The notes beneath the pieces were generated by a model that saw only the letters and a program-made list of their open reading frames with translations, made no database searches and was not told the DNA's origin. Below are positions 43,050 through 47,566 of a DNA stretch of 64,000 bases, piece by piece. The stretch lies in contig NZ_CP109031.1 in the NCBI RefSeq assembly GCF_036226925.1, positions 8,556,001-8,620,000 on the forward strand, read 5' to 3'. This DNA comes from Streptomyces sp. NBC_00659 (GTDB taxonomy: Bacteria; Actinomycetota; Actinomycetes; Streptomycetales; Streptomycetaceae). Positions within the stretch are counted from its first letter, which is position 1. Every line of letters starts with the position of its first letter. A program made the translations under genes and the position numbers.

Positions 43050-44078
43050 TCACTCCCGGCCGGCCGCCCCGCGCAGTGCCGCGATGGCCGTACCGATCGC
43101 CTGCTGGAGCTCCTCCAAGCGCTGCATCATGTCGTCCTCGTAGATGTCGTCGGCGTCGTCGAAGGTCAGCTCCTCGAACACCTTCGTTGCCTTCTGAAGG
43201 CTGCTGTAGAACTTCGTCCGGCGTTCCTGGACGCGCAGTTCGGGGTCCGCCTCCACCGTCTCGACGACGAGGTTCTTCATCGTGTCGTACGCCTCGGTGG
43301 CCCACTCGCCCGCGTCCTCGCCCTCGTCGAGCTCGTCGAGGAGGGACAGATGCCGTTCGGCCTCGGAGCGCAGCTCCGCCGGAGCGTCAAGCGTCTGTCC
43401 GGCCGGCGTCCTGATCTGGCCCTTCTCCGCGATCTGGCGCACGTAGCCGATGCGGTCGGCCGCCCTGTTCTCGGTGGCCACCGCCTTCTTCAGCTCGTCC
43501 GTGCGGGCGATGTCGCGGGCCAACTCGGTCTGGAGCGCCGGGTCCTCCTTCACCCGGTCGAGGAGCGCGGCCCGCGCCGCCTTCGCCGTGGAGGGGTCGG
43601 CGAGGATCGCGGCCCGCAGCGCGGTCGGGTTCTCGGCCACCTCCAGGGCCTTGGTGGGACGGATGCCCTCGGCCTCGGCGGCCTCGGTGATGGCTGCGCC
43701 GCGCTCCGAGGAGGCACTGGAGCGGGCGGCGTAGTAGGCCGACCAGGCGTCCCCGTCCGGCAGTTCGACGTCCGCGCCGGGCAGCAGGGCCTCGAAATGG
43801 GGGACCAGGCCGTCGTCGGCGGCCCTGTCCCAGGCCTTGTAGTAGCGCATGACCCGCTCGGGCGAGCAGCCGGCCAGCTCCGCGAACTCCTTCGCGGACA
43901 CCTTCTGCGTGTCCTCGGCGGACTGCCCGCCCGGACGGACACTGCGCGCCACCTTCAGCGCGAAGGCCCAGCCACCGTTCCGCGCGTAGGCGCCGAAGTC
44001 ATGCGCGTCGCGCTCGATGAGGCCGGGAACCCCGGTCTGCGTGGCGTCGTCTTTTGACGAGGTGATGGCTGCGGTCAC
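43050..44078 (-). CDS. Conserved soluble protein of unknown function, HTH-like segment
   Basis: 342 residues from the GTG at 44078 with AGGAG 9 bases upstream. No signal peptide or membrane helix. Residues about 55-95 (KEFAELAGCSPERVMRYYKAWDRAADDG) look like a helix-turn-helix, and the rest is long charged helices (ALEVAENPTALRAAILADPST, ETVEADPELRVQERRTKFYSS) ending in an acidic coiled region (FDDADDIYEDDMMQRLEEL). I do not recognise a named family. The gene is divergent from the graspetide precursor gene, 252 bp between starts, so it could regulate it or be unrelated. Confidence 0.65.
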   Translation of the reverse strand: MTAAITSSKDDATQTGVPGLIERDAHDFGAYARNGGWAFALKVARSVRPGGQSAEDTQKVSAKEFAELAGCSPERVMRYYKAWDRAADDGLVPHFEALLPGADVELPDGDAWSAYYAARSSASSERGAAITEAAEAEGIRPTKALEVAENPTALRAAILADPSTAKAARAALLDRVKEDPALQTELARDIARTDELKKAVATENRAADRIGYVRQIAEKGQIRTPAGQTLDAPAELRSEAERHLSLLDELDEGEDAGEWATEAYDTMKNLVVETVEADPELRVQERRTKFYSSLQKATKVFEELTFDDADDIYEDDMMQRLEELQQAIGTAIAALRGAAGRE

Positions 44079-44330
44079 CGGGAACTCTCCTGGGGTGGTG
44101 GGGCGTTGATGTCACGGAGGATGAAGCTATGGCCTAAGGTCTGCGTGGAATCAAGGAGACACGCGGAGACCGCGACCACGGCGGACACCCCAGTAAATCC
44201 GAAATGTGCAAGCCAGAAACGACGCGATGTGATGACCTTCACCCCGATGTGGCAGAAAGTGATGAATTCCTTACGGCTGTGTCACGTACGGGTGTGTATT
44301 GGCCATCGCGCGACCGCGGGAGGATCTTTC
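44079..44330. promoter_or_regulatory. Divergent promoter region of the graspetide locus
   Basis: 252 bp, clearly lower in GC than the surroundings. On the plus strand TTACGG and TGTATT about 18 bases apart (near 44270-44299) are a possible promoter for the precursor gene. On the minus strand TTGATT and TAGCTT about 19 bases apart face the 44078 gene. Both are weak matches. Confidence 0.35.
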
Positions 44331-44522
44331 GTGCGACCGTTCACTCTCAACTACGCCCGGCCCTCAGGGCAGTCGGCCGCTGTACCCCCGTACCACTTCG
44401 ACGTGTCCCTGCAACTGAACGTGCTGCCCGACGGCCGTCCGGCCGTCAGTGACCGCGCGCTGCTGATGGCGACCGGCACCACGACCTCGACGGCCGGTTC
44501 TCAGACGCACTTCGACGACTGA
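44331..44522 (+). CDS. tgmA: Graspetide precursor peptide (TgmA-like)
   Basis: 63 residues from the GTG at 44331, with GGGAGGATC upstream; the same frame stays open further 5' but has no ribosome site. The leader begins MRPFTLNYARPS and continues YHFDVSLQLNVLPDGRPAVSDRALL. The C-terminal core is TGTTTSTAGSQTHFDD: several Thr/Ser hydroxyls followed by acidic residues, the donor-acceptor set for side-chain ester (omega-ester) rings. This is the putative ATP-grasp-modified RiPP family seen with SAV_5884-type maturases. The maturase gene follows after 14 bp. No methyltransferase gene adjoins. The product may be polycyclic depsipeptide with Thr-Asp links; ring topology is not predictable by eye. 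Confidence 0.85.
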   Translation: MRPFTLNYARPSGQSAAVPPYHFDVSLQLNVLPDGRPAVSDRALLMATGTTTSTAGSQTHFDD

Positions 44523-44536
44523 CGGATGCCGCGCGC

Positions 44537-45490
44537 ATGACGGTTCTCATACTCACGGCCGAACAGGACGTCACCGCCGACATGGTGGTGGCCAGACTGC
44601 ATGAGCGCGGTGTGCCCATGGTGCGCCTCGATCCTGCCGACGTGCCCGGCAAGGCGGTGCTGTCAGCCGACTACGCTCACGGTGACTTCGACGGCTATCT
44701 GTCGGTCAACGGCCATGTGCTCAGCATGGGAGGCCTGCGTTCCGTGTGGGTGCGCAGACCGGGCGAGCCCGCGGCCCATGCCGCGGAACCCTCCGCATGG
44801 CTCACCGCCGAGACCAGGCAGGCCCTGTTCGGCATGCTCTACTCCGCCTCGACCCACTGGATGAACCACCCGCGCCGTGCCGAACAGGCCCGGCACAAGC
44901 CCTGGCAGCTCAGGGTGGCGCACAGCAGCGGGTTCGCCGTGCCGCCCACCGTCATCACGACCGCTCCCCGGGTGGCACAGCAGTTCGTGGAGGAGCACGG
45001 GGACGTGGTGGTGAAGTCGGCCTCGGGGCCGCCACCGGGTGAGTCTCCGGCGGCCCTGCCCACCACGCTGGTCGGACCCGGCACGGACTTCTCCGGCGTG
45101 GCGGCCGGTCCCGCCCTGCTCCAGCGCTACATTCCCCGACGCGCCGACATCCGGCTCACCGGCATCGGCACCCGGCTGTTCGCCGCCCGCAAGGCCGCCG
45201 AGCCCGGTCAGGTCGACGGCCGGTTCGGCGCGACGGACAACGGCTGGGAACCCACACCGGTGCCCCACCGCATCGCCCGTGCGGTCCACGACTACCTCGC
45301 CTTCACCGGACTCGCCTACGCGGCCTTCGACTTCGCCGAGGACGCGGACGGCATCTGGTGGTTCCTGGAGTGCAACCAGGGAGGCCAGTTCGGCTTCATC
45401 GAGCTGGAGACCGGACAGCCCATCGCCGACGAGGTCGCCGTGTGGCTGGCACAGCGAAGGCCAGGCCTCCGTATTCCGGAAGGACACTGA
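44537..45490 (+). CDS. tgmB: ATP-grasp ribosomal peptide maturase, SAV_5884 family
   Basis: 317 residues from the ATG at 44537, 14 bp after the precursor stop. The N-terminal half has a pre-ATP-grasp fold (VLILTAEQDVTADMVVARLHERG, GGLRSVWVRRPGEPAA) and the C-terminal half an ATP-grasp fold: lysine in DVVVKSASG, ALLQRYIPRRADIRLTGIG, AFDFAEDADGIWWFLECNQGGQF with the Mg2+-binding E and N. Maturases of this type use ATP to form ester or amide bonds between side chains of the precursor peptide, activating Asp/Glu carboxylates as acyl phosphates. Cytosolic. It is followed by the convergent pseudokinase gene after 40 bp, so the locus is only two genes. Confidence 0.9.
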   Translation: MTVLILTAEQDVTADMVVARLHERGVPMVRLDPADVPGKAVLSADYAHGDFDGYLSVNGHVLSMGGLRSVWVRRPGEPAAHAAEPSAWLTAETRQALFGMLYSASTHWMNHPRRAEQARHKPWQLRVAHSSGFAVPPTVITTAPRVAQQFVEEHGDVVVKSASGPPPGESPAALPTTLVGPGTDFSGVAAGPALLQRYIPRRADIRLTGIGTRLFAARKAAEPGQVDGRFGATDNGWEPTPVPHRIARAVHDYLAFTGLAYAAFDFAEDADGIWWFLECNQGGQFGFIELETGQPIADEVAVWLAQRRPGLRIPEGH

Positions 45491-45530: not shown

Positions 45531-47180
45531 TCACTGCGTCCCGGTCCGGAAGGAGTCGAAGAAGACCTTCAGCGCCTGCCGGTTGGCGGCGGTGTCCCAG
45601 TCGTCCGCCGGGGTCGTCCAGCGCAGCGAGAAGCCCCGGTGTCCGCCGAGGAGGAAACCGCGGCCGAGGGTGCGCACTTGTACGCCCTGGGACACGGAGT
45701 ACCACTCCATGTCGGCGCCCTTCATGCCGCGATAGGTCACCGGCCGGATGGCGCCCACCCGTTCGTAGCCTGTGGACACAGCGCGCAGGGACGGCTCCAG
45801 GTCGCTCCAGACGGCGACCGGGTCCGGCCCGAGCTGGGTGCTGTAGGTGACGGCCAGGGTGCGTGGATCGCCGCTCGCCCCGAACGTCACCCGGTAGGCG
45901 AGATCGTCGGAGGACTGTGTCTCCACGGGTTTCCAGCCCGACGGCAGGGCGACGGCGAAGCCCTGGGGTGCCCGGTAGAGGGAGAAGCCGGACGGCAGGG
46001 TCGCGCCGGCGGTGGCCGAGGGAGAGGGGGAGGGGGACGGCTTCGCGGACGCCGTGGGCGTCCCCTGGTCGGCGGGCGCGCCGACGTCGGTGGGGGTCGC
46101 GGACGGCGCGCGCGTGGCAGCCCGTGACGCCGCCGGGCCGGACGCGGAGGTGTCGTCCCCGTCCGGCGGTCCGCCCATCGAGGCGAACACCAGGGCGCCG
46201 GCGACGGTGACGGCGAGGGCCGCGCCCAGCAGAACCGGCCGGCCCACGGGCAGGCCTCCGCGGCTGCGCCCCGGCTGTCCCTTGTCCTCGCCCTCAGCAC
46301 GCCCGTCGCGGTGGTCCCCGGCGGGATCGAGGAGATCGGGCAGCGGCTCCGGGGGCGTGACCTCCTCGAAGTTCTGCCGGAGGATGCGCGTCAGCGACTC
46401 CCGCACGACAGCCTCGGGCACCCGCTCCACGGGGTCCCAGCGCAGCAGGCCCAGGATGGCGGGAGCGAGCGGGCCCGCGCCGCGCGGGGCCCTGACCGGC
46501 AGCCGGTCCACCGCCCGGAGCGTGGCCTCCGCCTCACCCCGGTCCCGTACGGCCGGCCGCCCCTCGACCAGCGCGTACATCATCGCGCCCAGCGCCCAGA
46601 GATCGGCCGCGGGTGCGCCGCCCTCGCCGCGGGCCTGTTCGGGGGAGGCGTACGAGGGAGCGGTGACGCGGAGCGCGTCGGCGGACGCCGTCAGGCCGAA
46701 CCCGGTCACGGTGACCGTGCCGTGCTCGTCGGACCACACCTGGCTCGGGCCGAGTTCGCGGTGCACGACTCCCTCGCGGTGCGCGGCGGTGAGGACATCG
46801 AGGACGCCGAGCCCGATTCCGGCAGCCCGCACATGATCGACGGGACCGTGCAGGAGGAGTTCGGACAGCGGGGCACCCGGAGGCCGCTCCGTGACGGTCC
46901 ACAGGAAGCCCGGCTCCTCGACCACGTCGAGGACCGCGGCCACCCCTCCGTTACAGGCCGGCCCGAGGATCTTGGCCGTACGCAGGATCCGGTCGGCGGC
47001 GGGCTCCGGCGTCTCCTCGCCTCCGTGTCCGGCGGCACGCGACCGGGTCAGGACGACGGGCCGCCCGAAGGCGGTGTCCTCGCCGTGCCACAGGACCCGG
47101 CCCTCCTCGCGCAGGAAGGCATCGAGCAGCCGGTATCTCCCGGCGATCAACTCGCCCGCGGAGTCATGCGCCTTGGCCAT
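45531..47180 (-). CDS. Membrane protein with degenerate Ser/Thr kinase domain (pseudokinase)
   Basis: 549 residues from the ATG at 47180 with GAGGG 6 bases upstream. Residues 10-280 align with the Hanks kinase fold (GRYRLLDAFL at the N-lobe, APSYASPEQARGEGG, DLWALGAMMYALVEGRP) but key residues are gone: VVL-T-R where the ATP lysine belongs, H140-R-E-L-G-P-S-Q in place of HRDLKPxN, and T-G-F-G in place of DFG. One membrane helix lies near 327-347. A long Ser/Thr/Pro/Ala linker leads to an extracytoplasmic domain (LPSGFSLYRAPQGFAVALPSGW, VTYRGMKGADMEWYS) of about 150 residues. It probably signals without phosphotransfer; divergent from the serine hydrolase gene. Confidence 0.85.
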   Translation of the reverse strand: MAKAHDSAGELIAGRYRLLDAFLREEGRVLWHGEDTAFGRPVVLTRSRAAGHGGEETPEPAADRILRTAKILGPACNGGVAAVLDVVEEPGFLWTVTERPPGAPLSELLLHGPVDHVRAAGIGLGVLDVLTAAHREGVVHRELGPSQVWSDEHGTVTVTGFGLTASADALRVTAPSYASPEQARGEGGAPAADLWALGAMMYALVEGRPAVRDRGEAEATLRAVDRLPVRAPRGAGPLAPAILGLLRWDPVERVPEAVVRESLTRILRQNFEEVTPPEPLPDLLDPAGDHRDGRAEGEDKGQPGRSRGGLPVGRPVLLGAALAVTVAGALVFASMGGPPDGDDTSASGPAASRAATRAPSATPTDVGAPADQGTPTASAKPSPSPSPSATAGATLPSGFSLYRAPQGFAVALPSGWKPVETQSSDDLAYRVTFGASGDPRTLAVTYSTQLGPDPVAVWSDLEPSLRAVSTGYERVGAIRPVTYRGMKGADMEWYSVSQGVQVRTLGRGFLLGGHRGFSLRWTTPADDWDTAANRQALKVFFDSFRTGTQ

Positions 47181-47566
47181 CGTCATCCCTCGTCGTGTAC
47201 CGGACATTCGCCTTTCCCAGAAGTACGCGGGATGTGACGAAGAGTGTTCAACGGGAGACGACTGGAGATGAGTGTTTTTACCCGGACGTCCGGCCGTCGC
47301 GCGCCCGTACGAACAGTTCAGGCCCCTGTTTCCCGCCGGTTCACCGACCGGACGTTTGGCCGGGACAGCGCTCCGGAGTGCACAGTGAACGCCAACTCGC
47401 CTTTGGGTAGGAGGAGTTGCAACGTGGCTTGGAACAGAGGAGTGCCGGTGCCGCCGGGACATGGACACCGGCGGGCCGCCCGGGAAAGATGCCGGATGCA
47501 CACAATGCTCCCCGCCCGCCGTGTCCAGTCGCCGCCCGCCGCCCGAGCCATCTGGAGGCCGTCCGT
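47181..47566. other. Divergent promoter spacer
   Basis: 386 bp between the pseudokinase and serine hydrolase starts, with a low-GC patch around 47260-47290 (GTTTTTACCC). No gene is supportable; promoter boxes are not clear by eye. Confidence 0.4.

Follow-up and report, generated by a model that had tools for sequence, protein, structure and literature searches.

A 64,000-nt stretch of DNA from Streptomyces sp. NBC_00659 (NZ_CP109031.1, positions 8556001–8620000; G000:C1 in our genome set), hereafter the window, carries two adjoining genes for a short peptide and an ATP-grasp maturase. The pair is real and intact, an ordinary representative of a two-gene graspetide family already known. Counted within the window, its features are as follows.

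44331..44522, + strand: graspetide precursor (PruA-like, Strep_pep family), 63 aa, GTG start, recognized by PF14404, TIGR04186 and the leader motif PF-LNY.
44475..44519, + strand: frozen core of the precursor, G49–D63, GTTTSTAGSQTHFDD, delimited by position counts and by the proportions of nonsynonymous (pN) and synonymous (pS) differences; predicted acceptors Asp62 and Asp63, donor candidates Thr51, Ser53, Thr59 and Ser57.
44537..45490, + strand: ATP-grasp graspetide synthetase (PruB-like), 317 aa, recognized by TIGR04187 and its match to PDB 9BOU.

The open reading frame (ORF) of the precursor starts with GTG at 44331, with GGGAGGA just 5' of it, and stops with TGA at 44520–44522. Its product matches Pfam PF14404 (Strep_pep) over residues 1–63 of 63 with 119.6 bits against a curated cut-off of 25, a full-length match that places it in this family, and NCBIfam TIGR04186 (GRASP_targ) with 49.7 bits, again against a cut-off of 25. 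As expected of a graspetide precursor, it combines a conserved leader motif, PF-LNY, lying close to the N-terminus as among relatives, with Ser/Thr/Lys donors and Asp/Glu acceptors toward the C-terminus. The maturase ORF runs from an ATG at 44537, 14 bp past the precursor stop, to a TGA at 45490. A 63-residue precursor 14 bp ahead of a maturase had been proposed in an earlier reading of this DNA, the original prediction, and is confirmed by the ORF coordinates together with the PF14404 and TIGR04186 matches. The leader/core boundary given there is a guess; the frozen stretch begins at Gly49, one residue downstream of the proposed core start.

Against TIGR04187 (GRASP_SAV_5884) the maturase scored 358.8 bits, a narrow pass over the cut-off of 350, which bears out its earlier description as an ATP-grasp enzyme of the SAV_5884 type. 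Weaker matches were obtained to MvdC (113.6 bits) and MvdD (91.9 bits), and its fold matches comprise MdnC, MdnB, PsnB and PruB, so that an ATP-grasp maturase of the MvdC/MvdD/PsnB kind, the hallmark of a graspetide system, is encoded adjoining the precursor. The closest solved structure is PDB 9BOU, entitled 'ATP-grasp ligase PruB from Streptomyces coelicolor A3(2)', to which the maturase is homologous with 56–58% identity (phmmer 385.8 bits, E 1.7e-114). Given this closest structure, the two genes most probably constitute a prunipeptin-type (PruA/PruB) graspetide system, a reading to which we assign a probability of about 0.9 from sequence comparison. Prunipeptin is reportedly a bicyclic peptide, going by the title of a 2021 publication by Unno and Kodani.

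Survey of 392 Streptomyces genomes revealed PF14404 matches above the cut-off in 215, a few of the weakest lying in long unrelated frames; the Strep_pep family is restricted to Streptomyces. We assembled two sets of loci, 48 from a profile search and 80 kept out of 442 with the S. prunicolor genome left out, giving 128 loci in all; some genomes occur in both sets, and some loci end at contig ends. The maturase adjoins the precursor in 48/48 loci and is present within the locus in 80/80 more. In view of these counts and the 215/392 genomes, the pairing of precursor and maturase is not due to chance. One of the 48 loci has a frame-shifted precursor, leaving 47 for precursor counts. At L087 (7001–7153) a maturase of intact length accompanies a precursor with a shifted frame and a lost core, which reflects either decay of the copy or a fault in the assembly. 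Eight genomes (G007, G049, G067, G063, G001, G022, G026 and G061) carry two Strep_pep loci each; in those that were read, one locus is usually of a Lys type and the other of a Gln/Ala type, named after core position 58, and the second copy of G026 is of the Lys type.

The family core follows the consensus GTTTSTAGSxTHFDD. Position counts were made on 247 precursor sequences (47 profile-search loci, 80 named loci and 120 database proteins), corresponding to 215 distinct precursors. Across the latter, Thr51, Ser53, Ala55, Gly56, Thr59, His60, Phe61, Asp62 and Asp63 are invariant, Ser57 and Thr54 are each changed once, and Thr50 and Thr52 are replaceable. Position 58 is occupied by Lys in 105, Gln in 82, Ala in 27 and Arg in 1. 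At the DNA level, the core of the 47 loci shows a pS of 0.470 and a pN of 0.038, compared with 0.538 and 0.253 for the leader (three 64-residue precursors left out) and 0.516 and 0.158 for the first 33 maturase codons. The last 15 residues of Strep_pep precursors share a mean identity of 0.935. Such a near-frozen core is unusual for peptides of this kind. Co-variation of the Thr and Asp positions, proposed earlier as a check on the bridges, is absent, Thr51, Ser53, Thr59, Asp62 and Asp63 being unvarying.

Within residues 42–63 of the window precursor, Asp62 and Asp63 are the only Asp residues; therefore at most two bridges, with a loss of 36 Da, are expected in the core. A frozen core with two acceptors suggests that two bridges would be formed. 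Since several Thr/Ser residues are invariant, no firm choice of donors can be made. Several points weigh against the assignment and the predicted bridges. The label prunipeptin-type is drawn from the likeness of the maturase to PruB, and both the number and the connectivity of the bridges are predictions. Asp24, Asp34 and Asp41 of the leader are also well conserved, so that an extra bridge may lie outside the frozen core, and half of the distinct relatives carry Lys58, a possible amide donor there. Two of the three sequence sources behind the position counts were gathered partly by way of core words and are biased toward conserved cores, which makes the 47-locus set the cleanest; it shows the same invariant residues, with Lys in 34, Gln in 6 and Ala in 7 at position 58. 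Finally, over the last 25 residues the mean identity is 0.755 for Strep_pep and 0.303 for precursors of loci encoding an isoaspartyl methyltransferase (PIMT), a comparison made without age correction, the PIMT-type group being the older (maturase identity 0.53 versus 0.67). The PIMT-type precursors (27/30 extracted) were taken from related genomes with a loose motif, and composition decided where two frames fitted.

The original prediction had compared the locus with those of the fuscimiditide type and considered its third gene, the methyltransferase, to be missing. A tblastn search with the TIGR04188 protein of the genome itself found no PIMT within ~7 kb on either side of the window pair (locus L068), as the prediction had stated, nor in flanks of at most 7 kb around the 48 Strep_pep loci or of at most 4 kb around the 80 further ones. 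That this query can detect PIMT genes was shown by a control set of 30 loci chosen for their top TIGR04187 scores, of which 27 yielded one within flanks of just 1.5 kb. In a maturase tree of the 48 Strep_pep members and these 30 others, 27 of them PIMT-linked, built by a quick method and unrooted, a fully supported branch (Shimodaira–Hasegawa-like approximate likelihood ratio test, SH-aLRT, 100) divides all Strep_pep maturases from the rest. Between the two groups the mean maturase identity drops to 0.34, from 0.67 among Strep_pep members and 0.53 among the rest, which separates the locus from the fuscimiditide type. As none of the Strep_pep relatives examined has a PIMT gene beside the pair, its absence is a state of the clade rather than an event at the window locus; a local loss was rejected, and nothing is missing from the pair. 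The unrooted tree is compatible with a single ancient loss, which may have occurred at the base of the clade.

A graspimiditide of the fuscimiditide type that has lost its PIMT gene, or a peptide methylated by a PIMT encoded elsewhere in the genome, is a very improbable explanation of the same genes. The genome does contain such enzymes, the search for which had been suggested earlier. A complete three-gene graspimiditide locus lies ~98 kb upstream (G000:C1:8500991-8503328; L088 6992–9329), with a 97-aa precursor holding several Asp, a maturase at 8501296–8502213 and, at 8502255–8503328, a true PIMT scoring 443.9 bits against TIGR04188 (cut-off 380). Another gene, PIMT-like, lies near 3636559 (3.64 Mb; L089 6326–7318, − strand); it encodes 330 aa and scores 257 bits, below this cut-off. 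Genes with comparable matches are common across the Streptomyces set, and 38/40 Strep_pep carriers have one at E 1e-60 or better, a possible source in trans. According to PMC13001092, known graspimiditide PIMTs act without the leader, and therefore trans action is chemically thinkable. Weighed against these points are the 0/48 and 0/80 Strep_pep loci with a PIMT. Furthermore, in the relatives set, which holds 91 Streptomyces genomes and in which up to 12 PIMT candidates per genome were scored, 19/40 carriers, including the nearest relatives G024 and G040, have no PIMT above the cut-off, and such PIMTs show no association with the family (21/40 carriers versus 21/51 non-carriers, Fisher p 0.30). 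PMC13001092 also places the methylated Asp of known graspimiditides in the loop between the bridged Asp residues; the window core lacks the third Asp that an aspartimide would require. Action of a PIMT in trans is thus unlikely. The bare bridged peptide envisaged earlier is the likeliest product; the new ring pattern attributed to it is unsupported and probably not new, given a maturase 56–58% identical to PruB, whose name points to the bicyclic prunipeptin.

The ring pattern could nevertheless differ within the family, if the Lys-type peptides contained a lactam at Lys58 and the Gln58 clade of the window a truly different set of rings. We regard this as doubtful. Position 58 tracks the maturase clades, the tree requiring no fewer than 4 changes and being satisfied by as few as 4; the L054 precursor combines Lys54 with Ala58, and both types occur together in several genomes (e.g. 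G007, G049 and G067). Graspetide synthetases are able to use Lys, as PMC13097080 describes, which also counts in favor of a Lys58 lactam. However, both types keep Thr51, Ser53, Thr59, Asp62 and Asp63 without exception, and the donors thus shared suffice for the same two esters without position 58. Four losses of an obligatory donor with the rest of the core unchanged would be the less simple history. Because Lys58 is replaced in whole clades, a lactam at this position is not obligatory for the family. As for the enzyme itself, D265, E278 and N280 are invariant across 33 aligned relatives. That the maturase is inactive or performs some other RimK-like ligase work, the small ORF not being its substrate, is hardly credible.

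Taking the two genes as a prunipeptin-type system, we propose a putative route to the product. The PruB-like maturase would bind the leader at its N-terminal PF-LNY motif and use ATP to phosphorylate Asp62 and Asp63 on their side chains. Conserved Thr/Ser hydroxyls, most likely those of Thr51 and one of Ser53, Ser57 and Thr59, would then attack the activated side chains. Since the window clade has Gln58 in place of Lys58, both bridges should be esters, and the product would be a bicyclic peptide lighter by 36 Da. Afterwards, an unlinked protease would take off the leader. No methylation or aspartimide formation would follow, as the core lacks a third Asp.

Upstream of the precursor, a further conserved element was recognized.

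44228..44275, + strand: conserved non-coding block 5' of the precursor in the subfamily of the window (TGTGATGACCTTCACC...ATGTGGCAGAAAGTGATGAATTCCTTACG), found by alignment; possibly a promoter or operator.

This block is aligned in 12 loci and matched with at most 7 mismatches in 10/128. Its 29-mer at 44247–44275 occurs once in each of 5 genomes (at most 3 mismatches), always 5' of the precursor. Each main subfamily has a conserved block of its own at this place: that of the Lys clade is matched in 105/128 loci, and 13/128 have neither. A Lys-type 21-mer occurs once in each of 4/5 genomes (at most 2 mismatches), again always 5' of the precursor, and is absent from the window genome, which itself has no Lys-type locus. 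A coding reading of the window-type block, raised by codon-like third-base changes, was dropped because of an in-frame stop in L079 and an indel in L076. A single Rfam match, to the archaeal/eukaryotic-type snoRNA sR7 at 44225–44282, overlapping the block, scored 21.6 bits against a gathering threshold of 37 (E 0.035) and was taken as chance. By eye, we spotted inside the block a CRP-like TGTGA-N6-TCAC element.

The developmental regulator BldD offers one clue to control in the sister clade. Boxes of the form TNAC(N)5GTNA, as given in PMC4151990, are frequent in the region of the Lys-type block. They were found in 16/25 and 41/80 Lys-clade loci and in 5/11 loci of other lineages, compared with 13/1089 control windows of the same loci, counts that are not independent, the loci being related. 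In L045, L052, L066 and L112, for example, the boxes lie ~130 or 72 bases before the start. None was found in the 12 loci of the window subfamily, and therefore a link to BldD does not extend to the window itself. The distribution of the boxes hints at developmental control in the Lys-type sister clade, not in the window.

A core this constrained suggests that the peptide acts on a single conserved target or receptor throughout Streptomyces rather than as a diversifying weapon. Going further, the Strep_pep peptide might be a genus-wide, near-invariant signal, internal or between kin, or else inhibit some conserved protease of Streptomyces, and be linked to the developmental programme; Lys-type loci would be controlled by cyclic di-GMP (c-di-GMP) and BldD, and in the window clade another conserved element would have replaced the developmental operator. 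This speculative and rather improbable reading draws on the frozen core, on the upstream block occurring once per carrier genome checked and on the BldD boxes at Lys-type loci. The locus as such is a further copy of a family present in more than half of the Streptomyces species sampled, with a published bicyclic namesake and a crystal structure of the enzyme. The open interest lies in the near-invariant core of a modified peptide encoded by thousands of Streptomyces strains, where such peptides usually vary. A literature search, with subscription journals mostly outside its reach, found no paper on the structure of the Strep_pep core or on its regulation. A developmental signal or a conserved self target, if true, could be tested in S. 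coelicolor, for which the PruB structure is already solved.

Downstream, the pair is met by a gene on the opposite strand.

45531..47501, − strand: convergent kinase-like gene (PF00069, 51.9 bits) without the Asp of HRD and DFG by motif check; probably outside the system.

The ORF starts 40 bp past the maturase stop. Its product has a C-terminal extension and reads HRE in place of HRD and GFG in place of DFG; the stretch VVLTRS holds no Lys. It is likely a pseudokinase, and the earlier account of a maturase followed by a convergent pseudokinase was fair on these grounds. A partner role of this gene or of the upstream gene (43050–44078) was rejected, since of 48 loci just one, that of the nearest relative (L071), has both of them next to the pair. 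Other gene clusters are each shared by 14 of the 48 loci at most, and by 10 at most at a fixed place, so that no conserved third gene emerged from a scan whose crude gene caller recovered the precursor in 25/48 loci and the maturase in 45/48.

In comparison with known systems, the window pair stands closest to PruA/PruB. Other Strep_pep maturases reach up to 86% identity to PruB; the clade nearest PruB has Lys58, whereas the window maturase sits in the other main subclade, with Gln58. Microviridin (MdnB/MdnC) and plesiocin (PsnB) synthetases share just 18–28% identity with the window maturase, and their precursors have leader and core motifs unlike those seen here. The graspimiditides of group 13 (fuscimiditide, amycolimiditide and albusimiditide) have in common with the pair the TIGR04187 superfamily model, a Thr/Asp-rich C-terminal core and a Streptomyces host. 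They differ in having a PIMT (TIGR04188) in the locus, PIMT-linked maturases in a clade separate from the Strep_pep ones, and variable cores with many Asp, including a further Asp in the loop, whereas the window locus has no PIMT and a frozen core with two Asp. Within the PF14404/TIGR04186 family itself, the precursor matches at full length, carries the family core with Gln58 and shows nothing beyond the family range.
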